Under the pieces are notes generated by a model. It saw only the letters and a list, made by a program, of their open reading frames with translations. It had not been told where the DNA came from and ran no database searches. From Geodermatophilus sp. YIM 151500 (GTDB lineage: Bacteria > Actinomycetota > Actinomycetes > Mycobacteriales > Geodermatophilaceae), in assembly GCF_025716945.1 (NCBI RefSeq), contig NZ_JAOVZT010000002.1:463097-527096 (forward strand): 64,000 bases of DNA, read 5' to 3'. Below, one piece after another: positions 35,788-48,400 of the stretch; within the stretch, counting starts at the first letter, position 1; every line of letters starts with the position of its first letter. The position numbers and the translations under genes were made by a program.

Positions 35788-37755
35788 TCACCCGGTCCGG
35801 GTGACGACCGACCGCGGCCAGCGCGTCAGGACGCCGGCGTCCTCGAGCGAGGAGAGGTCGCCCGGGGGCACGCCGAGGTAGGAGGCCCGGGCCACGCGCC
35901 GCAGGACCTTGCCGTTGCGGGTCTTGGGCAGCGCGTCGACGACGTGGACCGCGCGCGGCGCCAGGGCCCGCCCCAGCGCCGCGGTCACCACGGCGTGCAA
36001 CGCCTCCGCGGCGGCGGCGGGCTCGACGCCGGGGTGCAGGACGACGAAGCAGACCAGCACCTCGCCCTTGACCTCGTCCGGGACACCGACGGCGGCGGCC
36101 TCCACCACCCGGCCGTCGGCGACCAGCAGCGACTCGACCTCGGCCGGCCCGAGCCGCTTGCCGGCGACCTTGATGGTGTCGTCGGACCGGCCCAGCACGT
36201 ACCAGAACCCGTCGGCGTCGACGTAGGCGAGGTCGCCGTGGTGCCAGACGCCCGGGAACCGACGCCAGTACGAGGCCAGGTAGCGCTCCTCGTCGCGCCA
36301 GAAGCCGCGGGTCATGCCGGGCCAGACCGACCGGACCACCAGTTCGCCGACCTCACCGCGCACGGACCGGCCGGACTCGTCCACCACGTCGACCCGCACA
36401 CCGAGCGGAGGGCCGGGGAACGACGTCGGCTTGGCCGGCAACCAGGTCGCGCCGCACAGCAGCGAACCGCCGATCTCCGTCCCGCCGGAGATGTTGACGA
36501 CCGGTGCCCGGCCCTTGCCGACGTGCTCGGCGCACCACAGCCACGGTTCGACGTTCCACGGCTCACCGGTGGAGCCGATCGCCCGCAGGTCGGCCAGCGC
36601 GTGCCGGTCGGGCCACCCGTCCCCGTGCGCCATGAGCGCGCGGACGACGGTGGGGGAGACGCCGAGCACGGTGGCGCGCAGGCGCTCGGCGACGTCCCAC
36701 AGCCGATCGGGCGCCGGCCAGTCGGGCACGCCCTCGAAGAGCACCGCCGTCCCGCCGTTGCCGAGCGCCGCGGCGACGACGTAGCTGCCCATGACCCAGC
36801 CCATGTCGGTCAACCAGAGCACCGCCGAGGTCTCGTCGACGCCCAGCCCGTGCCGGGCCTCGATGGCGATCTTGAGCGGCAGGCCGGCGTGGGTGTGCAC
36901 GCAGCCCTTCGGCCGTCCGGTGCTGCCGGAGGTGTAGAGCAGCAGGCACGGATCGAAGCCGGCCATGGGCTCGGCCGCGGTCACCGGCTCGGCCGCGGCC
37001 AGCGCCGCCGCCCAGTCGACGTCGCGACCCGGGACGAGCGGGTTGCCGCTGCCGAGGCGGTCGACGACGAGGACGGTGCGCAGCCCGGCCAGGCCCCGGG
37101 CGGCCTCGTCGGCCACCCGCTTGAGCGGCACCGGGCGGCCCCGGCGCGGGAACGCGTCGCAGGTGACCAGCGCCCGGGCGCCGGCGTCCTCCAGCCGCGC
37201 CCGCACCGCCTGCGGCCCGTAGCCGCTGAACAACGGCAGCGCGATGGCCCCGATCCTCGCCGCGGCGAGGACGGCCACGACGGCCTCGGGCACCATCGGC
37301 AGCAGCAGCGCGACCACGTCGCCCCGGCCGACGCCGGCACCGCGCAGCGCCCCGGCCGCCCGGTTCACCTGCTCCGCGAGCTCCGAGTAGTCGAGCGCCC
37401 GGGTGGCGCCGTCCTCGCCCTCCCAGCGGATCGCCGGTGCCGAGCCGCGGCCCTCCCGCACCCACCGGTCGACGGCGAAGTCGGCCCAGTTGAGCCGGCC
37501 GCCGACGAAGAACTCGGGGTGCTCCACCCCGCGCGCGGTGTCGACCACCGCCCCGTAGGGGCGCATCCAGGGGATGCCGACGTCCTCGACCGCCGCCGCC
37601 CAGTACCAGGCCGGATCGGCGAGCGCGCGCTCGACGAGCGCGCCGGGGCCGGGGATGCCGTGGCGGGCCGCGAAGCGGCCGGCCGGGGAGGCGTCGAACG
37701 CGCCGGGCGGCGGGCTCCAGGTGACCGTCAGCCGCTCCAGCTCCTCGATCGGCAT
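35788..37755 (-). CDS. Acyl-CoA synthetase (ACS-like AMP-dependent ligase)
   Basis: ATG at 37755 with GGGAGGA upstream, 655 residues, the length of acetyl-CoA synthetases. An ACS N-terminal cap (FFVGGRLNWADFAVDRW) precedes the adenylation core with LLLYTSGSTGRPKG, STGEPWN, YVLGRSDDTIKVAGKRLGP and the C-terminal Lys region LPKTRNGKVLRR. It activates a carboxylic acid to its CoA thioester with ATP. The regulator gene follows 80 nt downstream in the same direction. It diverges from the LLM operon at 37973. Confidence 0.85.
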   Translation of the reverse strand: MPIEELERLTVTWSPPPGAFDASPAGRFAARHGIPGPGALVERALADPAWYWAAAVEDVGIPWMRPYGAVVDTARGVEHPEFFVGGRLNWADFAVDRWVREGRGSAPAIRWEGEDGATRALDYSELAEQVNRAAGALRGAGVGRGDVVALLLPMVPEAVVAVLAAARIGAIALPLFSGYGPQAVRARLEDAGARALVTCDAFPRRGRPVPLKRVADEAARGLAGLRTVLVVDRLGSGNPLVPGRDVDWAAALAAAEPVTAAEPMAGFDPCLLLYTSGSTGRPKGCVHTHAGLPLKIAIEARHGLGVDETSAVLWLTDMGWVMGSYVVAAALGNGGTAVLFEGVPDWPAPDRLWDVAERLRATVLGVSPTVVRALMAHGDGWPDRHALADLRAIGSTGEPWNVEPWLWCAEHVGKGRAPVVNISGGTEIGGSLLCGATWLPAKPTSFPGPPLGVRVDVVDESGRSVRGEVGELVVRSVWPGMTRGFWRDEERYLASYWRRFPGVWHHGDLAYVDADGFWYVLGRSDDTIKVAGKRLGPAEVESLLVADGRVVEAAAVGVPDEVKGEVLVCFVVLHPGVEPAAAAEALHAVVTAALGRALAPRAVHVVDALPKTRNGKVLRRVARASYLGVPPGDLSSLEDAGVLTRWPRSVVTRTG

Positions 37756-37823
37756 CGCCGCCGTCCTCCCTGCTCCGGGGCCTTCGGACGCCCGAGTATC
37801 GGGTCGAGCCGCTCGGGTGCGGC

Positions 37824-37839
37824 TTGTGCGCGTCGACAA
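37824..37839 (+). promoter_or_regulatory. Candidate activator-binding palindrome, site 5
   Basis: TTGTGC-GCGT-CGACAA keeps the TTGT/ACAA ends and 4-bp spacer. Its centre (37831.5) is 64.5 bp from TAGCGT at 37896. It sits between the acyl-CoA synthetase gene and the LLM/RibBA operon, oriented by spacing towards the latter. Confidence 0.5.
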
Positions 37840-37895
37840 CGAAATGGCGGGAGACGCTGTGGCTGCGCCACATGTGACGGGCCCCCGGGTGTCCG

Positions 37896-37901
37896 TAGCG
37901 T
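37896..37901 (+). promoter_or_regulatory. Candidate -10 element of the LLM/RibBA/molybdenum hydroxylase operon
   Basis: TAGCGT in CGTAGCGTCCCCG, nearly the same 13 bases as at the transporter promoter at 24686. GTGACG at 37874 could be a poor -35 with a 16-bp spacer. The leader to the ATG at 37973 would be about 65 nt. Confidence 0.5.
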
Positions 37902-37972
37902 CCCCGACCAGCGGGGTGGTGCACCTCACATCCCGACGCGACATCCCGACTGCGACCAGGAGGCCGGCGGCC

Positions 37973-39220
37973 ATGGTGAAGGTGATCCTCCAGCTCTACC
38001 CCCAGGTCCGGGCCACCCGCGAGGAGCGGATCGCCCAGCGTCCATTGGGCCGTGACGCCGAGCGCTACCAGGCCCTGATCCGCGAGATGCCGACGATCGT
38101 CCGCGCGGCCGACGAGCTGGGCCTGTGGGGCATCTCCTCGATCGAGCACCACTTCCACAGCGAGGGCTACGAGGTCGGCCCGAACCCCGGCCTGCTCGAC
38201 GCCTACTGGGCGGCCATGACCACGCGCATCCGGGTCGGCCAGCTCGGCTGGACGATGAGTGCGCAGAACCCGTTCCGCGTGGCCGAGGACGTCGCGATCA
38301 TCGACCACCTCTCCGGCGGCCGCTCGTTCTGCGGCTTCTCCCGCGGCTACCAGGCGCGATGGACCAACATCATCGGCCAGCACCTGGGGACGCGCGCCAC
38401 CCTGTCGCCGTCCGGCACGCAGGACAAGATGGCCGAGCTCGACGAGGCGACCCGCGCGGCCCGGATCTCCGACGACCAGGTCAACCGGGAGATCTTCGAG
38501 GAGAACGTCGAGCTCGTGCTGCAGTCCTGGACGCAGGACAGCGTCGAGGCCAAGGGCCGCTGGCAGGTGCCCTACCCCTACGAGGAGGGCGTCGACTGGA
38601 CGATGACCGCCACGCGGGAGCTCGGCGCCCCGGGTGAGATGGACGAGAACGGCAAGATCCGCCGGGTCAGCGTCACGCCCAGCCCGCTGACCAAGCCCTA
38701 CCCGCCGGTGTTCGTCTCCAGCAACGCCAGCAAGGAGACCATCGAGTACTGCGGCCCGCGCGGCTTCATCCCGACGTACTTCTCGAAGATCGAGCGGGCC
38801 GCCGAGTTCGGGGCGGCCTACGTCCACGCGGCCGCCGCCGGGGGGAGGACGTACGCGCTCGGCCAGAACCAGGCGCTGGTCCGCTGGGGCCAGATGGCCG
38901 ACACCGAGGACGAGGCCCGGCGCATGGTCGCCGAGTACGACGTCGACATCTTCCGCGACCTGTACGCGGGCACCACCCCGATGAAGTTCGACCCGGACAA
39001 CCCGGTCGACTCGGTGGTGAACTCCGGGCTGTGGGTCGTCGGCACGCCCGAGCAGGTCCGCGACCAGTACGTGGAGCTCTGGCGGCAGCTGCCGGCCGAG
39101 TACGTCGTGCTCATCTACCACTGGGCGCAGCAGCCGGCCGAGAGCGTCGTCCGCCAGCTCGAGCTGTTCATGCAGCACGTCAAGCCGGCGCTCGACGAGA
39201 TGACCCCGTACGAGGCCTGA
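37973..39220 (+). CDS. LLM class flavin-dependent monooxygenase
   Basis: ATG at 37973, 415 residues, longer than the other two LLM proteins here and closer in form to two-component monooxygenases. Features: [56 protein letters not shown], and [13 protein letters not shown] near the C-terminus. It would take reduced flavin from a separate reductase and insert oxygen into an organic substrate. The next gene, 1 nt away, makes riboflavin precursors, which fits a flavin-hungry enzyme. No reductase gene is adjacent. Confidence 0.83.
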
Positions 39221-39221
39221 G

Positions 39222-40535
39222 GTGCCGACGGCCGAGGTGCCCGGCGGGGCCCGCTTCGACCCCGTCGGGCTGGCGGTCCGGGAGATCGCCGACGGCGGCA
39301 TGGTCCTCGTCGTCGACGACGAGGACCGGGAGGACGAGGGCGACCTGATCATGGCCGCCGAGCACGTGACCGCGGCCGACGTCGCCTTCCTGGTGCGGCA
39401 CACCTCCGGGGTGCTGTGCGTGGCGCTCCCCGGCGAACGCTGCGACGAGCTCGACCTGCCGCTGATGGTCGCCGACAACACCGAGCAGCAGCGGACCGCC
39501 TTCACGCACACCGTCGACCTCGCCGCGGGCACGACGACGGGCATCTCGGCGGCCGACCGGTCGGCCACGATCCGCGGGCTGGCCGACGCGTCGCTCACCG
39601 GCGGCGCCTTCAACCGGCCCGGGCACGTCTTCCCCCTGCGCGCCCGGGACGGCGGGGTGCTCAAGCGGGCCGGCCACACCGAGGCGGCGGTCGACCTGGC
39701 GCGGCTGGCCGGGGTGACCCCGGCCGGGGTGCTCTGCGAGGTCGTCAACGACGACGGGACCATGGCCCGCCGCCCGGAGCTGCTGCGCTTCGCGGCCGAG
39801 CACGGATTGCCGATCATCACGATCGCCGACCTGGTCGAGCACCGGCGGCGCGTCGACGTCCTGGTCGAGCGGACCGGCGAGGCGCGGGTGCCGACCCCGT
39901 GGGGCGAGTTCCGCTGCGTCAGCTACCGGTCGGTGCTCGACGGGACCGAGCACGTGGCGTTCACGGTCGGCGACGTCACCGGCGAGGAGGAGCTGCTCGT
40001 CCGGGTGCACAGCGAGTGCCTGACCGGCGACATCTTCCGGTCGCTGCGCTGCGACTGCGGGCCCCAGCTGGAGTCGGCGATGGCGCGGGTGGCCGCCGCC
40101 GGCCGCGGTGCGGTGGTCTACCTGCGCGGCCACGAGGGACGGGGCATCGGGCTGGGCCACAAGCTGCGCGCCTACGGGCTGCAGGACGCCGGACGGGACA
40201 CCGTCGACGCCAACCTCGACCTCGGTGTGCCGGTGGACAGCCGGGAGTACGGCATCGGCGCGCAGATCCTGGCCGATCTCGGCGCCCGCCGGTTGCGGCT
40301 GCTCACCAACAACCCCGCGAAGTACGGCGGGCTGGACGGCTACGGGCTGGAGGTCGTGGGCCGGGAGCCGCTGCAGACGGTGCCCAACCCGGAGAACCTG
40401 CTCTACCTGCGCACCAAGAAGCGCCGGCTCGGCCACCTGCTCGACGGCCTCGACGACCTGCCGCTGCCCGTCGAGGGCACGCGGACCGACCTGCACGCCG
40501 CGGGAGGGCCCGACCGCGCATCCGTGCTCGCCTGA
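39222..40535 (+). CDS. ribBA: Bifunctional 3,4-dihydroxy-2-butanone-4-phosphate synthase / GTP cyclohydrolase II
   Basis: GTG at 39222, 437 residues. The N-terminal half (about 1-210) is DHBP synthase with [16 protein letters not shown] and the C-terminal half is GTP cyclohydrolase II, with zinc-site cysteines in [21 protein letters not shown] and [14 protein letters not shown]. Both halves look intact, so the protein can feed both entry arms of riboflavin synthesis. No other riboflavin genes are near. Its location between a flavin monooxygenase and an FAA hydrolase suggests a dedicated, co-induced copy, probably beside a housekeeping one elsewhere. Confidence 0.92.
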
Positions 40536-40579
40536 CCCCCGCGGCGCACCGCCGCCCCGCCCCTGACGGAAGGACCCGC

Positions 40580-41512
40580 ATGCGCTGGACCACCTACGTG
40601 TCACCCACCGACGGCCGCGAGCACCCGGCCGTCGTCTCCGACGGCTCGCTGCACGGTCTCCGCACGGCCACGCGGTTGCTCGACCTCCTGGGCGACGACG
40701 GCGAGCGGCTCGCCCGGGCCGGCGAGGAGGCGCTGGCCGACCCGCTCGACGTCGTCCCCGAGGGCGAGGCCGACCTGCGGGCGCCCATCCCCTCGCCGCC
40801 GTCGGTGCGGGACTTCTACGCCTTCGAGACGCACGTCCGGACCTACCGAGAGGCCAACGGCCAAGAGATGGACCCGGACTGGTACGAGCTGCCGGTCTTC
40901 TACTTCCAGAACCCGGCGGCGATCCGGTCCGCGCGGGCCGACGTGCCGATGCCACCGGGCTCGGCGAAGTACGACTTCGAGCTGGAGTTCGCCGCGGTGG
41001 TCGGCCGCGAGGGCGCGAACCTCACGCCGGACGAGGCCGAGCGGCACATCGCCGGCTACCTGCTCTTCTGCGACTGGAGCGCCCGCGACCTCCAGGCGCG
41101 GGAGGTCCGGCACAGCCTGGGACCGGTGAAGGCCAAGGACACCGCGACCAGCCTGGGCCCGTGGCTGGTCACCCCCGACGAGCTGGAGCCCCGCCGGTCG
41201 GGCCGGTCGTTCGACCTGGAGATGAGCGCCTCGGTCAACGGCCGGCCGTACAGCAAGGGCAACGCCGCGGACCTCTACTGGAGCTTTGGCCAGATGATCT
41301 CCTACGCCTCCCGCGGCACGCGGGTGCAGTCCGGCGACGTGATCGCCAGCGGAACGGTCGGCACCGGCTGCATCCTGGAGCTGTCCACCGTGCACAGCGA
41401 GGCGGAGTACCCGTGGCTGGCCCCGGGCGACGAAGTGCGGCTCGACGCCGACCTGCTCGGGTCGATCACCGCACGGATCACCGACGCCCCGCCGCTGCAC
41501 CCGCTCAAGTGA
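40580..41512 (+). CDS. Fumarylacetoacetate hydrolase family protein
   Basis: ATG at 40580 after GGAAGGA, 310 residues. The FAH fold is shown by YDFELEFAAVVGREG (metal-binding Glu-x-Glu), GYLLFCDWSARDLQ, KAKDTATSLGPWLVT and SGTVGTGC. Family members cleave C-C bonds of 3-oxo acids or hydrate/isomerise ring-opening products using Mg2+ or Ca2+. Its place after an oxygenase and before the redox genes fits a late step in ring cleavage. Confidence 0.87.
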   Translation: MRWTTYVSPTDGREHPAVVSDGSLHGLRTATRLLDLLGDDGERLARAGEEALADPLDVVPEGEADLRAPIPSPPSVRDFYAFETHVRTYREANGQEMDPDWYELPVFYFQNPAAIRSARADVPMPPGSAKYDFELEFAAVVGREGANLTPDEAERHIAGYLLFCDWSARDLQAREVRHSLGPVKAKDTATSLGPWLVTPDELEPRRSGRSFDLEMSASVNGRPYSKGNAADLYWSFGQMISYASRGTRVQSGDVIASGTVGTGCILELSTVHSEAEYPWLAPGDEVRLDADLLGSITARITDAPPLHPLK

Positions 41513-41522
41513 GGCGGTTCTC

Positions 41523-42005
41523 GTGCCCGAGCAGCGGACGACCCCCGACGTGGGGGACCGCGCCCCCGACTTCCGGCTGCGCCACACGTTCGAGGCCGAC
41601 GTCGGCCTGGCGGACACCCTCGCGCGCGGGCCGGTCGTGCTGGCCTTCTACGTGTTCGACTTCGGCGGCTACTAGCGGACCGAGCTGTCCCAGTTGGGAC
41701 ACCGGGCATCCGAGATCCGCGCGCTGGGCGCCGACGTCCTGGCCGTCGCCGTCACCGCGACCTTCTCCCAGCAGGCGTTCGCCGACGCCCTGGGCGTCGA
41801 CTTCCCGCTGCTGTCGGACTGGGACCGGGAGGTCTGCGCCGCCTACGACGTCCGCTACGACGTGTGGAAGGGCCACCGCGGGCTGGCCAAGCGGTCGCTG
41901 TTCGTCGTCGGCCGCGATGCGACCGTCCGCTACCGCTGGGTCACCGACGACGCGCTGGTGCTGCCCGACCTCGACGAGGCCGTGGCCGTCCTGCGCGAGC
42001 TCTGA
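41523..42005 (+). CDS. Peroxiredoxin-like protein with in-frame TAG at the peroxidatic cysteine (probable UAG-selenoprotein)
   Basis: GTG at 41523 after GAGG gives a 160-residue frame that is complete if the TAG at 41673-41675 (codon 51) is read. Upstream lie GDRAPDF and VVLAFYVFDFGGY, downstream RTELSQL, a conserved-type Arg in AKRSLFVVGRDATVRY, and SDWDREVCAAYDV with the only Cys (about 105). Aligning with AhpC/AhpE-type proteins (FYPxDFTxxCxxE) puts the TAG exactly on the peroxidatic Cys, with Glu at +3. The usual Thr is Gly. A SECIS-like hairpin follows at the proper distance. UAG-directed selenocysteine has been reported in Geodermatophilus and Blastococcus. The product would reduce peroxides with Sec. 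The alternative is a disrupted gene whose surviving part starts at TTG 41694. Confidence 0.78.
41673..41675 (+). other. TAG codon, candidate selenocysteine codon
   Basis: This in-frame TAG aligns with the catalytic cysteine of peroxiredoxins. It differs from the Cys codons TGC/TGT at two positions, so it is not a one-step mutation from an ordinary Cys codon. It would be one step (third-base change aside) from neither; a route from the Sec codon TGA also needs two changes. Confidence 0.7.
41676..41712 (+). promoter_or_regulatory. SECIS-like hairpin directly after the TAG codon
   Basis: The upper stem TGTCCC/GGGACA (41686-41691 with 41696-41701) closes an AGTT loop that starts 17 nt after the TAG. 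A lower CGGA/TCCG helix (41676-41679 with 41709-41712) is separated from it by an internal loop. In E. coli fdhF the SECIS apical loop starts about 18 nt after the UGA and also contains a G-U pair of bases needed by SelB. The geometry matches. Folding energy was not computed. Confidence 0.6.
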
Positions 42006-42011
42006 GCGGAG

Positions 42012-42965
42012 GTGCCGGTGACCCCCGGGGCTCCGGTCGGCGGGCCCGTGGGCCTGGTCGGCGGGCCCGTGGGCCCGGTCGGCGGGCCCGTGGGCCTGGT
42101 CGGCCTGGGCATCATGGGGTCGGCGATGTGGCGCCACCTCCTCGACCGCGGCCACCCGGTCGTCGGCTGCGACGTCGACCCCGCCCGGGTGCGCGACCTC
42201 GAGGCCGCCGGCGGCGCGGTCGCCGCCACGCCCCGCAAGGTGGCCGAGCGGGCCGACGTGGTCGTCACGTCGCTGCCCACGGAGGCCGCCGCGCGGGAGG
42301 TGTGCGCCGGCCTCGCCGGCGCCGGCCGCGCCGGCCTCGTCGTCGCCGAGACCTCGACGCTGCCGCACGAGGCCAAGGAGGACTGCCGGCGGCTGCTCGT
42401 CGACGCCGGAGGAGAGCTGCTTGACTGCCCGCTCAGCGGCACCGGGGCCCAGGCGCTGGTGCGCGACGTGGTCGTGCTGGGCAGCGGCGACGAGGCGGCC
42501 TTCGAGCGGGCCCGCCCGGCGCTGGAGGCCTTCGCCCGCTCGGTGCGCCACCTGGGCCCGTTCGGCGCCGGCTCCACCATGAAGCTGGTCGCCAACCTGC
42601 TGGTCGCGGTGCACAACGCCGCGACCGCGGAGGCCTTCGCGCTCGGGCAGGCGGCCGGGCTGGACCCGCGGCAGATCTACGACACCATCCGCGACGGCGC
42701 GGGCAACTCGGTGATCTTCGAGAAGCGGGGCGCGCTGATGGTGGACCGCCGCTGGGAGCCGCCCACCGCGAAGGTGTCGATGTTCGTCAAGGACGCCGCG
42801 CTCATCGCCGAGTTCGCCGACCGCGTGGGGGTGCTCACGCCCGTGCTGCAGGCCACCCGCCCGCTCTACGACCGCGCGGTCGAGCTCGGGCTGGCCTCCG
42901 CCGACGCGGCGGCCCTGCTGGAGGTCCTCGAGGCGCCCGCCGCGGCCCGGGAGGAGCCGGCATGA
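42012..42965 (+). CDS. Beta-hydroxyacid dehydrogenase family (HIBADH-like) NAD(P)-dependent oxidoreductase
   Basis: GTG at 42012 with GGAGGT overlapping it. Other in-frame GTGs occur at 42018, 42048, 42069 and 42090. Up to 317 residues. The Rossmann motif GLVGLGIMGSAMW is preceded by three copies of GGPVGLV. The catalytic Lys is in GAGSTMKLVANLL. The family oxidises 3-hydroxyisobutyrate, tartronate semialdehyde and similar short hydroxy acids. True translation may begin at the last repeat (VGLVGLG), which would give a normal-length protein near 290 residues. Overlaps the next gene by ATGA. Confidence 0.83.
   Translation: MPVTPGAPVGGPVGLVGGPVGPVGGPVGLVGLGIMGSAMWRHLLDRGHPVVGCDVDPARVRDLEAAGGAVAATPRKVAERADVVVTSLPTEAAAREVCAGLAGAGRAGLVVAETSTLPHEAKEDCRRLLVDAGGELLDCPLSGTGAQALVRDVVVLGSGDEAAFERARPALEAFARSVRHLGPFGAGSTMKLVANLLVAVHNAATAEAFALGQAAGLDPRQIYDTIRDGAGNSVIFEKRGALMVDRRWEPPTAKVSMFVKDAALIAEFADRVGVLTPVLQATRPLYDRAVELGLASADAAALLEVLEAPAAAREEPA
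42033..42101 (+). repeat. 21-bp in-frame repeat carrying GTG codons
   Basis: Three units of GGCGGGCCCGTGGGCCTGGTC (one with CCG for CTG) at the 5' end of the dehydrogenase gene encode GGPVGLV. Each unit carries an in-frame GTG followed by the first strand of the Rossmann fold. Confidence 0.85.
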
Positions 42966-43432
42966 CGACGCTCGCGCAGGCGCGGGCCGTCGCCTCGGCG
43001 ACGCTGGCGCACGGACGGAGCATCGGCGCCGCCCCGTTGACCGTGGCGGTGCTCGACGCCGGTGGGCACCTGGTCGTCCTCGAGCGCGAGGACGGCTCGG
43101 GCATCCTGCGCCCGCAGATCGCCTGCGCGAAGGCGTGGAGCGCGCTGGGCATGGGGTTCAGCTCGCGGGAGATCGGTGTGCGCGCCGAGCGCCAGCCGGT
43201 GTTCTTCGGCGCGCTGGCCGCGGTCGCCGACGGGCGCTGGGCCCCCGCCGCCGGCGGGGTCCTGCTGCGGTCGGACGACGGCTCGGTCACCGGCGCCGTC
43301 GGCGTCAGCGGCGACGTCTCCGACGTCGACGAGGAGTGCGCGCTCGCCGGCGTCGCCGCGGCCGGGTTGCGGTCCGACCCCCCGGCCGGGGGAGCGACGG
43401 CGGGCCCGCCCGGGGGGAGCGGCGCGCGGTGA
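42962..43432 (+). CDS. GlcG/HbpS family heme-binding-like protein
   Basis: ATG at 42962 overlapping the previous stop, 156 residues. GlcG/HbpS features: LTVAVLDAGGHLVVLERED, CAKAWSALGMGFSSREIG, AAGGVLLRSDDG and VTGAVGVSGDVSDVDEECA. HbpS binds heme outside the cell in Streptomyces. Cytoplasmic relatives such as GlcG and PduO-C occur in catabolic operons with little defined role. No signal peptide here. GTGA overlap with the FAD subunit gene. Confidence 0.82.
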   Translation: MTTLAQARAVASATLAHGRSIGAAPLTVAVLDAGGHLVVLEREDGSGILRPQIACAKAWSALGMGFSSREIGVRAERQPVFFGALAAVADGRWAPAAGGVLLRSDDGSVTGAVGVSGDVSDVDEECALAGVAAAGLRSDPPAGGATAGPPGGSGAR

Positions 43433-44304
43433 AGCCGGCGCCGTTCGAGTACGTGCGAGCCGACACCGTGCCGGAGGCGCTGGCCGCGCTCGGCGGCGCC
43501 GACGACGCCCGGGTCCTCGCCGGTGGCCAGAGCCTGGTCCCGATCATGGCGCTCCGGCTGGCCACGCCCGAGGTGCTGGTCGACGTCTCCCGGGCACCGG
43601 AGCTGCGGGAACACCGGTCGGACGGCGGGGTGCTCACCGTCGGTGCCGGGGTCACCGACCGCGAGCTGGAGCTGGACGCCGGAGTGCGCGCGGCGCACCC
43701 GCTGCTGGTGCGCACCCTGTCGCTGATCGCCCACCCCGAGATCCGCGCCCGGGGCACGCTGTGCGGCTCGCTCGCGCACGCCGACCCGGCCGCGGAGCTG
43801 CCCGCGCTGCTGCTGGCCACCGACGGCGAGGTGGAGGTCGCCGGCGACGCCGGCCGGCGTCGCGTGCCGGCCGCCGAGTTCGTCACCGGCCCGTTCACCA
43901 CCGCGCTGGCGGACGGCGAGATGGTCGTCGCCGCGCACCTGCCGCTGCCCGGGCCGGGCTCGGGCTGGGCGGTGGACGAGATCGCGCGGCGCCCGGGTGA
44001 CTACGCGCTGGCCGGCGTGGTCTGCGGCGTCGAGCTCGACGGTGCCGGGCGCTGCGCGGGGGCGCGGGTCGCCCTCTTCGGGGTGGCCGCCACACCGGTG
44101 CGGGCGCACGGCGCGGAGCGGGTGCTCGACGGCGCGGTGCCCGACGACGCCGCCCTCGACGCGGCGGCCGCCGCGGCCTTCGACGGCGTCGACGTGATCG
44201 GTGACGAGGTGCACGCCTCGGCCGGGTACCGGCGGCGGGCCGGCGCGGCCCTGGTGCGCCGGGCGCTGACCGCGGCGGTCCGGGCGGCGGGGGAGGGTGC
44301 GTGA
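43429..44304 (+). CDS. Molybdenum hydroxylase FAD-binding subunit (CoxM-like)
   Basis: GTG at 43429, 291 residues. FAD contacts VLAGGQSLVPIMALR near residue 30 and GTLCGSLAHADPAAELP near residue 105 are the two family signatures, followed by the CODH-type C-terminal domain. It takes electrons from the 2Fe-2S subunit. Order medium-small-large with 4-bp overlaps is typical of coxMSL-like operons. Confidence 0.9.
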   Translation: MKPAPFEYVRADTVPEALAALGGADDARVLAGGQSLVPIMALRLATPEVLVDVSRAPELREHRSDGGVLTVGAGVTDRELELDAGVRAAHPLLVRTLSLIAHPEIRARGTLCGSLAHADPAAELPALLLATDGEVEVAGDAGRRRVPAAEFVTGPFTTALADGEMVVAAHLPLPGPGSGWAVDEIARRPGDYALAGVVCGVELDGAGRCAGARVALFGVAATPVRAHGAERVLDGAVPDDAALDAAAAAAFDGVDVIGDEVHASAGYRRRAGAALVRRALTAAVRAAGEGA

Positions 44305-44849
44305 CGGTGGCTGGGGAACCGGTGCGGGTCCGGTTGTCGGTCAACGGCCGAGCCGAGGTCGGGCTGGCCGAGCCCCGGACGACGCTGGCCGAGTTCCTCC
44401 GCGAGGAGCTGGGGCTGACCGGCACGCACGTGGGCTGCGAGCAGGGCGTCTGCGGCGCCTGCACGGTCGTCGTCGACGGCGCCGCGGTGCGCGGCTGCCT
44501 GATGTTCGCCGTCCAGGCCGACGGCCGCGCGGTGGAGACCGTCGAGGGCCTGGCCGCCGAGGGCGGGATGCACCCGCTGCAGCGGGCCTTCTGGGACGCC
44601 CAGGCGCTGCAGTGCGGCTTCTGCACCCCCGGCCTGCTCATGACGGCGCTGGTCGCGCTGCGGGAGCGGCCGGAGTGGACCCGGGAGGCACTCCGCGAGC
44701 GGTTGAGCGGCAACCTCTGCCGGTGCACCGGCTACTCCACCGTGCTCGACGCGGTGCTCGCCGCCGGCCGCGCGGGCGCCGGGGACGGTGGCGACGACGG
44801 GAGCGCCGGCGCCGGCGCGCCGGCCTCCGGCGAGGCGGGACCGCGATGA
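44301..44849 (+). CDS. Molybdenum hydroxylase 2Fe-2S subunit (CoxS-like)
   Basis: GTG at 44301, 182 residues. First cluster CEQGVCGACTVVVDG, second cluster CGFCTPGLLMTAL and CRCTGY. A Gly/Ala-rich tail of about 20 residues follows the conserved domain. Electron carrier between the Mo and FAD subunits encoded on either side. Confidence 0.9.
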   Translation: MTVAGEPVRVRLSVNGRAEVGLAEPRTTLAEFLREELGLTGTHVGCEQGVCGACTVVVDGAAVRGCLMFAVQADGRAVETVEGLAAEGGMHPLQRAFWDAQALQCGFCTPGLLMTALVALRERPEWTREALRERLSGNLCRCTGYSTVLDAVLAAGRAGAGDGGDDGSAGAGAPASGEAGPR

Positions 44850-47203
44850 CGGGTACCGGGTACGTCGGGCGGGCCGTGCGGCGCCGCGAGGACCCCCGGC
44901 TGCTGGCCGGCCGGGGCCGCTACGTCGACGACGTGACCGAGCCCCGCCAGGCGTACGTCGCGTTCGTCCGGTCGCCGGTGGCGTCCGCGCGGATCGCCCG
45001 GATCGACACCTCGGCCGCCCGCTCGGCTCCCGACGTGCTCGCCGTGCTCACCGCCGACGACCTCGCCGGGCACTGCTCCGGCTGGCGCGGCCTGTTGTCC
45101 TGGCCCGGCATGGTCGCCGGCGAGCAGACCGCGCTGGCCACCGGCGTGGTCCGGCACGTGGGCGAGCCGGTCGCGCTCGTGGTGGCGACCGGCCGCGGCC
45201 CGGCCGAGGACGCCGCCGAGCTGGTGGAGGTCGACTACGAGGAGCGGCCGGCGGTCCTCGACCCGGTCGCCGCGCTGGAGCCGGGCAGCCCGCTGGTGCA
45301 CGAGGAGCTGGGCACCAACCTGTGCTTCGCCTCGCCGTTCGGCAGCGGCGACGTCGACGCGGCGTTCGCCGGCGCCGACACCGTGGTCGACGTGACCGTC
45401 CGCACCGGCCGGCACACCGCCGTCGCGCTGGAGACCCGCGGCATCCTGGCCGCGTTCGACCGGGACGAGCGCACCCTCACGGTGCGGATCTCCACCCAGG
45501 CACCGCAGATGCTGCAGACGCTGTACGCCCGGCTGCTCGGGCTGCCCGAGAACTCCGTCCGCGTGATCACCGAGCACGTGGGCGGCGCCTTCGGGATGAA
45601 GGCGTTCGTGTACCCCGACGAGATCGCGGTGGCGGCCGCCGCGATGCTCCTCGACCGCCCGCTCAAGTGGACCCAGGACCGCTACGAGGCGATGCAGTCG
45701 GACACCCAGGCGCGCGACGAGCGGGTCACCGCCTCCCTCGCGCTCACCGCCGACGGCCGCATCCTGGGCCTGCGCTCGCAGGTCGTCTCCGACGCCGGGG
45801 CCTGGTCGATGTACCCCCGAGGGTGCGTGACCGAGGGCGTGCAGGTGGCCACGATCATGCCGGGCCCGTACCGCGTGCCGGCCGTCGCGGCGGACCTCCG
45901 CGTCGTCTACACGAACAAGGCGCCGCTGGCGGTGTACCGCGCGGTCGGCCACCCGCCGGCGATCCTGGTCATGGAACTGCTGATGGACGAGGCGGCGCGG
46001 GCGCTGGGGCTGGCTCCCGACGAGGTCCGGCGGCGCAACCTCGTCCGGCCGGAGGACCTCCCGTACACGTCGGCGACCGGCAACGTCTACGACTCCGGGT
46101 CGCACCTGGAGTCGCTGGAGCGCGCCGTCGCCCTGCTCGGCCCGGACGGGCTGGAGGAGCGCCGGCGGGACGCCGCGGCGAGGGGCCGGCTGCTCGGCGT
46201 GGGGCTCGCCGCGTTCGTCGAGCTGTCCGCGCCGGGCGCGATGTTCTACGGCGCGAAGGGCGCGCCCATCACCGCGCACGACCAGGTCGAGGTGACGTTG
46301 CAGCCCGACGGCTCGGTGACCGTGCTGCTGGGTACGCCCGGCCAGGGCCAGGGGCTGCACACCACGGCCGCGCAGGTGGTCGCCGACGGCCTGGGCGTAC
46401 CGCTGGAGGCGGTCCGGGTCGTCTCGGGCGACACCGGCGTCGTGCCGCACGGCAGCGGCGTGTGGGCCAGCCGGTCGGCGGTGGTCAGCGCCGGGGCCGC
46501 GCACGCCGCCGCGGTCGAGGTCCGCGGCCGGGTGCTCGCCCTGGCCGGTCACCTGCTGGAGGCCGACCCGGCCGACCTGGAGCTGTCCGAGGGCGTGGTC
46601 GGGGTGCGCGGGGTGCCCGGCACCCGCGTGCCGGTGCACGAGATCGCCGCCGTGGCGTACTGGGGCACCCACCGGCTGCCCCCCGACCTGGAGGTGGGGC
46701 TCGGCGCGGTCGGCTCCTACGCCGGACCGCCGTACACCTTCAACAACGGCACGCACGTGGCGGTCGTGGAGGTTGAGCGCGCGACGGGGCTGGTCCGGGT
46801 CGTCGACTACGTCGTGGTCGAGGACTGCGGCGTGCTCATCAACCCCGACATCGTCGACGGCCAGATCCGCGGTGGCGTGGCGCAGGGCCTCGGTGGCGCC
46901 CTGCTCGAGCAGGTGGTGCACGACCCGAACGGCCAGCCGCAGACCTCCACGATGCTCGACTACCTGGTGCCCACCGCCTACGACGTGCCGGACATCCGCA
47001 TCGAGCACATCCAGACGCCGGCGCCCACGACGACCCTGGGCACCAAGGGCGTCGGGGAGGCCGGGACCGCCGGCGCGCCGGCGGCCGTCCACTGCGCGGT
47101 CAACGACGCGCTGGCCCGGGCGGGCGCCGGCGGGGTGTTCCGCCAGCCCATCCGCCCGGAGGACGTGCTCGACGCGCTCGACCGGGCGCCGGCGTCGCGC
47201 TGA
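44846..47203 (+). CDS. Molybdenum hydroxylase large subunit (CoxL/xanthine dehydrogenase family)
   Basis: ATG at 44846, 785 residues, normal for the family. Starts with YVGRAVRRREDPRLLAGRG, has the Mo-cofactor segment HVGGAFGMKAFVYPDE, and ends with TKGVGEAGTAGAP, where the Glu is the catalytic base. At the place of the form-I CO dehydrogenase motif AYxCSFR it has AVYRAVGHP, without the Cys, so it is not a CO dehydrogenase. Substrates may be N-heterocycles, purines or aldehydes. Final gene of the long operon, converging on lacI-type regulator gene. Confidence 0.9.
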   Translation: MTGTGYVGRAVRRREDPRLLAGRGRYVDDVTEPRQAYVAFVRSPVASARIARIDTSAARSAPDVLAVLTADDLAGHCSGWRGLLSWPGMVAGEQTALATGVVRHVGEPVALVVATGRGPAEDAAELVEVDYEERPAVLDPVAALEPGSPLVHEELGTNLCFASPFGSGDVDAAFAGADTVVDVTVRTGRHTAVALETRGILAAFDRDERTLTVRISTQAPQMLQTLYARLLGLPENSVRVITEHVGGAFGMKAFVYPDEIAVAAAAMLLDRPLKWTQDRYEAMQSDTQARDERVTASLALTADGRILGLRSQVVSDAGAWSMYPRGCVTEGVQVATIMPGPYRVPAVAADLRVVYTNKAPLAVYRAVGHPPAILVMELLMDEAARALGLAPDEVRRRNLVRPEDLPYTSATGNVYDSGSHLESLERAVALLGPDGLEERRRDAAARGRLLGVGLAAFVELSAPGAMFYGAKGAPITAHDQVEVTLQPDGSVTVLLGTPGQGQGLHTTAAQVVADGLGVPLEAVRVVSGDTGVVPHGSGVWASRSAVVSAGAAHAAAVEVRGRVLALAGHLLEADPADLELSEGVVGVRGVPGTRVPVHEIAAVAYWGTHRLPPDLEVGLGAVGSYAGPPYTFNNGTHVAVVEVERATGLVRVVDYVVVEDCGVLINPDIVDGQIRGGVAQGLGGALLEQVVHDPNGQPQTSTMLDYLVPTAYDVPDIRIEHIQTPAPTTTLGTKGVGEAGTAGAPAAVHCAVNDALARAGAGGVFRQPIRPEDVLDALDRAPASR

Positions 47204-47242
47204 CCCGGGACGCCGGTCACGGGAGTGCCGGTGGTGCGGGCC

Positions 47243-48400
47243 TCACCGGACGCGGACCGGCGGGCGGTCGACGGTCGCCCGCCGGACCAGGCTGGTCGCG
47301 AACACCTGCTCCCGGCCCGGACCGATCTCGTCGGCGCCCTCGATCCGCTCGGCGAGCATCCGGACCGCCGCCCGCGCCATGTCGCCGATGGGCTGGCGCA
47401 GGGTGCTGAGCTGGAAGACCTCCCACGCGGCCATCGGGATGTCGTCGTAGCCGAGGATCGAGACGTCGTCGGGCACCCGGACCCCCAGGGAGAGGGCGGC
47501 GTCGATGGCGCCGAAGGCGACGACGTCGTTGCCGCACACGATCGCGGTGGGTGGATCGGGCAGCCGCAGCAGCTCGCGGGTGTGCTGGTAGCCGTTCTGG
47601 TGGGAGAACGTCCCCTCGCGCACCAGCGCCGGATCCAGCGACAGGCCGGCCTCCGCGAGCGCCTCCGTCAGCCCGGCCAGCCGGTCGCGGCTGGTGGAGG
47701 TGTTGGCCGGGCCGCGGACCACGGCGATCCTGCGGTGCCCGAGGTCGAGCAGGTGCCGGCCGCCGATGACCGCGCCGCCGTGGTTGTCGCTGGTCACCCG
47801 GTCGACGTCGAGACCGTCGATGTACCGGTTGAGCAGCACCATGGGCAGCCTGCGCTGCTGCAGCTCCACGGCGAAGCGGGAGCCGAGCGTCGCCGTGGTG
47901 ACCAGCACGCCGTCGATCGACCGGTCGAGCAACCGCCGGAGCGTCTCCTGCCCGGTCGGGATGTCGGTGCGCTCGGTCAGGAGCACGACGCGGTAGCCCA
48001 GCAGCTGCAGCTCGTCGTAGATGGGCGTGAGCAGCGAGGGGAAGAACGGGTTGGTCAGGTCGGAGACGATGACCGCGACCGTGCGGGTCGAGCGGCGGAC
48101 CAGGCCAGCGGCCAGCGAGTTGGGCACGTAGCCCAGGCGCAGCGCCGCCTCGTCGACGCGTCGGCGGGTCTCCTCGCGCACCCGCGGGTCACCGCGCAGG
48201 GCGCGCGACACGGTCGACTGCGAGACGCCGGCCGCGCGGGCGACGGTCCAGCTCGTGGGCGTGGCGTGGCCGGTCGGCTCCGCCGTGAGCCGCGGGGGGG
48301 CCAGTGGCGCGGACAGGGTCCGCGCCCGGCGCCGCGGGCGGGCGGTCACCCCAACGTCGGTGGGCTCCCCGGGCGGGGATTCCGTGCTCACCGGGGACAC
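47243..48400 (-). CDS. LacI family transcriptional regulator
   Basis: 385 residues from GTG 48400. Helix-turn-helix [21 protein letters not shown] lies at about 50-70, so the first 45 residues, low complexity and Arg/Pro-rich, are unusual and the true start may be a later GTG. The hinge region is followed by a periplasmic-binding-protein-like sensor ([47 protein letters not shown]). Likely repressor of a neighbouring operon, with a small molecule as inducer. Its target cannot be fixed from sequence. Confidence 0.85.

Follow-up and report, generated by a model that had tools for sequence, protein, structure and literature searches.

A peroxiredoxin-like gene of Geodermatophilus sp. YIM 151500 with a probable UAG-encoded selenocysteine at its catalytic position

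Introduction

The window analysed here, the whole stretch of 64,000 nucleotides from Geodermatophilus sp. YIM 151500, contains a peroxiredoxin-like gene with an in-frame TAG at its catalytic position. Is this codon a stop, the scar of a nonsense mutation or a sense codon, and if the last, for which amino acid?

UAG-directed incorporation of selenocysteine (Sec) in Geodermatophilaceae was reportedly described by Mukai and co-workers in 2016. In the accessible part of Santesmasses et al. 2017 (PMC5330540), CUA tRNA-Sec genes are given for three genomes of this family, Mukai 2016 is cited for formate dehydrogenases (FDHs) with UAG and for proteins with the UGSC motif, and an AhpC with Sec-TAG, a SECIS and a CUA tRNA is given for Blastococcus saxobsidens DD2. 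Going by this part of the source, the use of UAG for Sec in Geodermatophilaceae and one UAG-containing AhpC-like gene in B. saxobsidens DD2 are already known.

Results

The reading frame and its internal TAG

The gene (41523..42005, plus strand), recognized by its translation and AhpC-TSA match, starts with GTG and comprises 160 codons and a final TGA. A Shine-Dalgarno-like GAGG can be read at 41511..41514 (plus strand), 8 nt before the GTG. Translation gave one internal stop, the TAG at 41673..41675 (plus strand, residue 51), and the preliminary description of a 160-codon frame with a ribosome site, interrupted by TAG only, was borne out. The read-through product matched AhpC-TSA with 93.4 bits (cut-off 26), and in the profile alignment residue 51 fell on the peroxidatic Cys of the solved peroxiredoxin (Prx)/BCP chains. 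The placement of the TAG on the peroxidatic Cys of an AhpC-type fold stood, but the motif comparison that accompanied it had overlooked the Val and Gly in place of the Pro and Thr of PxxxTxxC. This replacement occurs in all 20 close copies of the gene, so the canonical Prx motif is absent from them.

In the six pairs formed by the four TAG-bearing genes described below, dN/dS was 0.20–0.59 upstream and 0.22–0.41 downstream of the TAG. Since it is low both before and after the codon, both halves of the gene appear to be kept as protein.

This bears on the possibility that only fragments are made, either through termination at UAG or through initiation at TTG (Leu58) giving a C-terminal piece, as annotated in databases. 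Of 1077 database relatives found, the best 120 were listed, and 118 of these proteins indeed begin at residues 55–65, past the codon; the fragment from the window itself is one of them. However, gene callers yield such starts behind any stop, the TTG at Leu58 is explained by the hairpin stem described below, and the N-terminal half is conserved in frame, as the upstream dN/dS values indicate; we consider production of fragments alone very unlikely. Many of the headless pieces among the best 120 listed are named peroxiredoxin, with the catalytic residue missing from the records.

The codon at residue 51 in related genes

At E ≤ 1e-30 the gene was detected in four of 112 Geodermatophilaceae genomes, each copy having exactly one stop, TAG. 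These genomes, of three genera, are the source genome, G040, Geodermatophilus ruber (G053, locus L137) and Blastococcus sp. CT_GayMR19 (G029, locus L138), the last two being matched to their loci through equal tRNA coordinates. A DNA scan of genome contigs with peptide patterns omitting residue 51 gave 24 loci. Eighteen were close (55–79% identity), with TGA in 16, TAG in two and Cys in none at residue 51; the distant loci had TGA (three) or the Cys codon TGC (two), and one further match was short and its codon was left unread. The prediction of a Sec codon at 41673..41675 is based on TAG in 4/4 copies from Geodermatophilaceae and TGA in 16/16 other close copies, with no sense codon at residue 51 among these 20 copies read as DNA. 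The record titles of the TGA copies include Acidimicrobiia, Nitriliruptorales and Streptosporangiales, five read just "Actinomycetes bacterium" and one just "bacterium"; none of the 16 genomes is named as Geodermatophilaceae, six titles being too general to place.

The alignment of homologues at codon 51, which the preliminary description had proposed, gave a clear answer for the DNA copies, but two full-length proteins among the best 120 listed relatives, both known as protein only, have Trp (P0002) and Arg (P0030) at this position. The Trp of P0002 could stem from a TGA read by another code. In the tree, the four TAG and the 16 TGA copies together formed a group of 20 rows (support 97/94); a branch setting the TAG copies apart occurred in 10% of bootstrap trees.

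In every genome with a detected tRNA-Sec, the anticodon fitted the codon: CUA in all four TAG genomes, and UCA in 13 of the 16 close and 3/3 distant TGA genomes. No tRNA-Sec was detected in the two Cys-form genomes or in three of the 16 close TGA genomes (those of L145, L150 and L152), all three being metagenome bins; a tRNA-Sec match in the genome of L150 proved to be a tRNA-Ser. These copies suggest a subfamily, devoid of Cys copies as far as the search went, in which the Sec codon would follow the tRNA-Sec anticodon of the host.

Could the gene instead be a pseudogene, once a Cys peroxiredoxin, whose catalytic codon suffered a nonsense mutation? TAG seems to be a working stop elsewhere, as it ends three of the 39 window ORFs with a coding-like G+C pattern (TGA ends the other 36). 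Against decay stand the same TAG in 4/4 genomes of three genera, the purifying selection after it, the TGA in 16 other close copies with no Cys copy, and the presence of a matching tRNA-Sec. Hence the earlier judgement that a random nonsense mutation is unlikely was upheld, and we regard a pseudogene as highly improbable. The 3/39 share of TAG suggests that the codon is recoded at selected positions and has not been reassigned in general.

A predicted SECIS hairpin behind the codon

A bacterial SECIS hairpin, UGUCCC-AGUU-GGGACA, is predicted at 41686..41701 (plus strand), 10 nt after the TAG. Its loop starts 16 nt after the TAG, at the lower limit of the 16–37 nt given for bacterial SECIS loops in the accessible part of PMC10778597. 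Folded as a 27-nt core, every one of the 20 close copies formed the hairpin; as a 45-nt piece 17 did so, L142, L150 and L154 deviating. Folding revealed it in neither of the two Cys forms. In the ungapped alignment of the 20 copies 81.4% of cells paired, against 41–59% when the alignment was slid; five copies pair in a register shifted by one, and therefore 81% and not all cells pair. Three of the hairpin pairs showed two-sided changes, and covariation reached 0.180 in comparison with 0.124 for shuffled data, 2 of 500 shuffles being as high.

Leu58 is encoded by TTG in all 17 copies that have Leu (the remaining three have Phe), and TTG makes up only 14 of 339 Leu codons in eight neighbouring genes or gene pieces. 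Similarly, the codon for Gly59 is GGA or GGG in 19/20 copies, and GGC serves for 247 of 364 Gly residues in eight neighbouring genes. Common to the four TAG genes are 21 identical bases after the codon, including UGUCCC-AGUU-GGGAC; an identical run of 21 nt was reached in 779 of 20,000 codon permutations and is only mildly unusual. The folding-energy z-scores were -2.1, -2.1 and -0.9 for 50, 37 and 70 nt, respectively. The case for the putative hairpin is carried by codon choice and covariation, the identical run and the energy z-scores being weak evidence.

The Sec decoding machinery of the source genome

In the source genome (4,771,094 bases in 53 contigs, 99.8% complete), a tRNA-Sec with the anticodon CUA was found at G000:C49:2601-2692 (RF01852, 66.4 bits; gathering threshold 47). 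The other RF01852 match above the cut-off was a tRNA-Ser. Profile searches identified selA (424 bits), selB (275 bits) and selD (387 bits), each above its curated cut-off and at most 6 kb from the tRNA-Sec gene; selD, the tRNA-Sec gene, selA and selB all lie within 8 kb on contig C49. The SelB frame of 581 aa equals the model length, with the profile match spanning model positions 2–339. Thus both the tRNA-Sec(CUA) and the three sel genes that the preliminary description had proposed to look for were detected.

The same tRNA was labelled tRNA-Pyl by ARAGORN, a label in favour of UAG standing for pyrrolysine or being decoded by a different suppressor tRNA. The covariance model (cmscan) called it tRNA-Sec with the score given above, and the search of the source genome for PylS gave at most 21.9 bits versus a cut-off of 178.15 (of 14 control genomes, 13 likewise gave such weak PylS matches, with one exceeding the cut-off). 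Moreover, selA, selB and selD stand beside the tRNA gene, and the position in question is a redox Cys in relatives. On these grounds such a reading of the codon is scarcely credible.

A scan of the FDH and AhpC-TSA families indicated at least three TAG-containing selenoprotein genes in the source genome. The FDH alpha gene on contig C52 encodes ENQARI-TAG-HSATV, followed by a 7-bp hairpin with the loop GGUCU. A stop was present in two of the 11 AhpC-TSA matches, the gene 41523..42005 and L230 (G000:C3:23442-23723, minus strand), which encodes LRGDW-TAG-PYCC and is referred to here as the UPYC gene. The assignment of the genome to the group with UAG selenoproteins was confirmed, since it groups with Geodermatophilaceae and has the tRNA-Sec(CUA) together with TAG at the Sec position of FDH.

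Sec codons across Geodermatophilaceae

A tRNA-Sec was detected at E ≤ 1e-11 in 108 of the 112 Geodermatophilaceae genomes, and in all 96 with a completeness of 90% or more and a contamination of 5% or less. The 110 tRNA-Sec genes read in the 112 genomes had the anticodon CUA (102) or UCA (eight). Counted by genome, CUA occurred in 101 and UCA alone in seven, and G059, one of the 101, had both. The seven UCA-only genomes (G067, G069, G070, G071, G073, G074 and G075; loci L028–L033 and L036) belong to the genera g6, g7 and g8 and are drafts of 190 to 550 contigs.

FDH at E ≤ 1e-80 gave 119 matches in 99/112 genomes, 118 of them with exactly one TAG; the odd match (G080) is partial, stopping at query residue 153, and the codon sits at 161. 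No TGA was found in FDH among these 119 matches, and no FDH at this threshold was present in any of the nine g6–g8 genomes, where TGA copies had been hoped for. In G098 and G099 FDH was present and no tRNA-Sec match was obtained.

UAG for Sec is general in the main Geodermatophilaceae genera. From group labels, used without a species tree, we infer a switch from UGA to UAG inside the family, between g6–g8 and the rest, and the UCA-only genomes of g6–g8 may mark the older state before this switch. As a separate observation, the pair of the anticodon stem beside the loop is U-A in the UCA tRNAs of g6–g8 versus C-G in the CUA tRNAs shown.

Besides its CUA tRNA-Sec and a TAG-containing formate dehydrogenase, the Geodermatophilaceae genome G059 has a UCA tRNA-Sec (L061, G059:C17, 1173-1263, minus strand; anticodon read). 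Approximately 300 bp from the latter lies an AhpD/CMD-like gene (L061, G059:C17, 1579-2157, plus strand; PF02627, 28.2 bits, cut-off 23) encoding RCFY-TGA-M (CxxU), with a 7-bp hairpin behind it. Among 68 family genomes with a relative of this gene (E ≤ 1e-15), only the G059 copy has the stop. The stretch has 59–63% G+C inside DNA of 69–79% G+C, and near the UCA tRNA-Sec there are genes that we take to be transposase-like. This stretch might stem from contamination.

The genetic neighbourhood

The gene lies between a fumarylacetoacetate (FAA)-hydrolase family gene (40580..41512, plus strand; PF01557, 175.8 bits), which ends 10 nt before its start, and a 3-hydroxyisobutyrate-dehydrogenase (HIBADH)-like gene (42012..42965, plus strand; PF03446 and PF14833), whose longest reading begins 6 nt past its stop. 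The FAA-hydrolase gene adjoins the Sec gene in all four TAG genomes; the HIBADH-like gene does so also in L138 and in neither L024 nor L137. The order LLM monooxygenase, ribBA, FAA hydrolase, Sec gene is kept in L137 and L138, the TAG genomes with long flanks, and the order ribBA, FAA hydrolase, Sec gene is kept in L024; the genes behind the Sec gene differ in L024 and L137. When 10 neighbouring window proteins were compared, no cluster shared with the TGA copies emerged, only scattered matches. A GlcG/HbpS-like match lies 5 kb from the gene in L140 and L143 and 3 kb from it in L145, and a HIBADH-like gene is found just behind the gene in L139 (29% identity) and, in L142 and L145, at a long distance from it.

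Two further features of the region were observed. A catabolic-looking cluster extends over 35788-48400 of the window and is kept in L138 and partly in L137; its members are presumably, for the most part, an AMP-ligase-like protein, LLM monooxygenase, ribBA, FAA hydrolase, a GlcG/HbpS-like protein, three CO-dehydrogenase-like Mo-hydroxylase subunits and a LacI regulator. At 42035-42104 a 21-bp unit is repeated 3.3 times (95% matches), and the N-terminal part of the HIBADH-like protein accordingly shows a GGPVGLV-like repeat, which may reflect a misplaced start of that gene or a recent expansion.

Fold, active site and function

The structure model (pLDDT 85, 19 sequences) had Bcp4 (TM 0.86) and PrxQ (TM 0.76) as its nearest folds, with residue 51 located on the first turn of an α-helix that spans 48–67. 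The profile search likewise gave archaeal PrxQ/Bcp4 (2ywn, 2cx3, 3hjp) and Mycobacterium tuberculosis AhpE (5id2) as the closest solved relatives. At the position of residue 51, 2ywn, 2cx3 and 5id2 have Cys (the 3hjp chain has Ser), preceded by Pro and Thr/Ser, whereas Val and Gly precede it here. Within the motif VFDFGxxU, V44 and G48 do not vary among the 19 sequences that make up alignment A4, the protein itself included, and L150, which was left out of A4, has them too. A conserved active-site Arg is a feature of peroxiredoxins; R124 is invariant in A4 and aligns with the Arg of PrxQ chains, including 2ywn. Thirteen of the 19 sequences, all four TAG copies among them, carry Cys105, a candidate resolving Cys.

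The presence of Sec in a Prx fold appears well supported by these comparisons; classical peroxidase activity is less sure. Sec may be inserted into an enzyme that is no hydroperoxide-reducing Prx and acts on another substrate; it could, for instance, be a thiol or selenenyl-sulfide oxidoreductase whose role is linked to the catabolic genes nearby. The invariant V44 and G48 speak for this, as do the failure of every NCBIfam model to reach its cut-off (the best, NF040737 for PrxU, scored 47 versus 270 bits) and the position of the gene behind the FAA-hydrolase gene in the four TAG genomes. The AhpC-TSA score, the nearest folds and the invariant R124 aligned with the PrxQ Arg argue against it, and we think such a function rather unlikely.

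Discussion

The gene 41523..42005 very probably encodes a Sec-containing peroxiredoxin-like enzyme, the UAG at residue 51 being read as Sec by the cell's own tRNA-Sec(CUA) with SelA, SelB and SelD, guided by the predicted hairpin. This judgement is drawn from genome sequence. Decay to a pseudogene, decoding as pyrrolysine and the making of fragments alone were each put to the test and rejected on the evidence against them.

In the proposed mechanism, SerRS would charge the tRNA-Sec(CUA) with Ser, which SelA would convert to Sec using selenophosphate supplied by SelD. SelB would hold the Sec-tRNA at the hairpin and deliver it at the UAG against release factor 1, and UAG elsewhere would remain a stop. 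Such decoding is workable because in E. coli UAG is translated as Sec by means of a CUA tRNA-Sec and a SECIS, according to the accessible part of PMC3834832. As the fold suggests, Sec51 would lie on the first turn of the helix that carries the peroxidatic Cys in peroxiredoxins and attack a peroxide from there; reduction of the oxidised selenium would then fall to Cys105, in copies that have this residue, or to an external thiol.

The system resembles that of Mukai 2016 in the tRNA-Sec(CUA), the FDH with TAG and the bacterial family; it differs in its product, as the selenoproteins attributed to that study in the accessible part of PMC5330540 are FDHs and UGSC proteins, and no peroxiredoxin is named there. 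UGA-encoded bacterial seleno-peroxiredoxins, for which the accessible part of the review PMC13188914 gives the motif PxxxTxxU, resemble the present protein in that Sec occupies the peroxidatic position within an AhpC-TSA domain. Unlike them and PrxU, it has VxxxGxxU, the codon UAG and the low PrxU score given above. UAG appears in the accessible part of PMC13188914 at three places, concerning engineering, ordinary stops and a reference title.

With the AhpC of DD2 the protein has in common its AhpC-superfamily membership, Sec at UAG, a SECIS and a CUA tRNA, and the identity of the two genes was considered. Genome G009, which we take to be that of B. saxobsidens DD2, holds a single TAG among its 13 AhpC-TSA matches. 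It lies in the UPYC protein L237, which is 25% identical to the product of the gene 41523..42005 over 115 residues; the latter gene was absent from G009 at E ≤ 1e-30. The proposal that it is the published DD2 AhpC was dropped for this reason, subject to the assumed identity of G009. On the same assumption, the DD2 AhpC probably belongs to the UPYC family, other than that of the gene studied here. The source genome has both the UPYC gene and the VxxxGxxU gene, and of these G009 has UPYC alone.

In the open-licence literature, as far as its accessible text goes, no report was found of this subfamily or of a genome with both CUA and UCA tRNA-Sec. As far as the literature searched can tell, what appears new, again on the strength of sequence comparison, is a VxxxGxxU subfamily with no Cys copy found and with its codon matched to the anticodon, together with the anticodon census.

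Tentatively, and somewhat short of an even prospect, we propose a wider picture in two parts. A Sec-only Prx family would cross a code border, using UGA in the majority of actinobacteria and UAG within Geodermatophilaceae, the codon following the tRNA-Sec anticodon and the hairpin staying unchanged; and G059 would use two stop codons for Sec, the second brought by a tRNA-plus-selenoprotein cassette.

A change in what a codon means can seldom be observed with the two versions of a single gene available for comparison. In the present family one catalytic residue is written as UGA or as UAG, and both the anticodon and the hairpin are known, so that the rules matching SelB, hairpin, codon and release factor would be testable by swaps. 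The in-frame Sec codon would also explain why databases hold mostly headless fragments of this subfamily. Finally, G059, should its two anticodons prove genuine, would show in a living cell whether two Sec codons can coexist.
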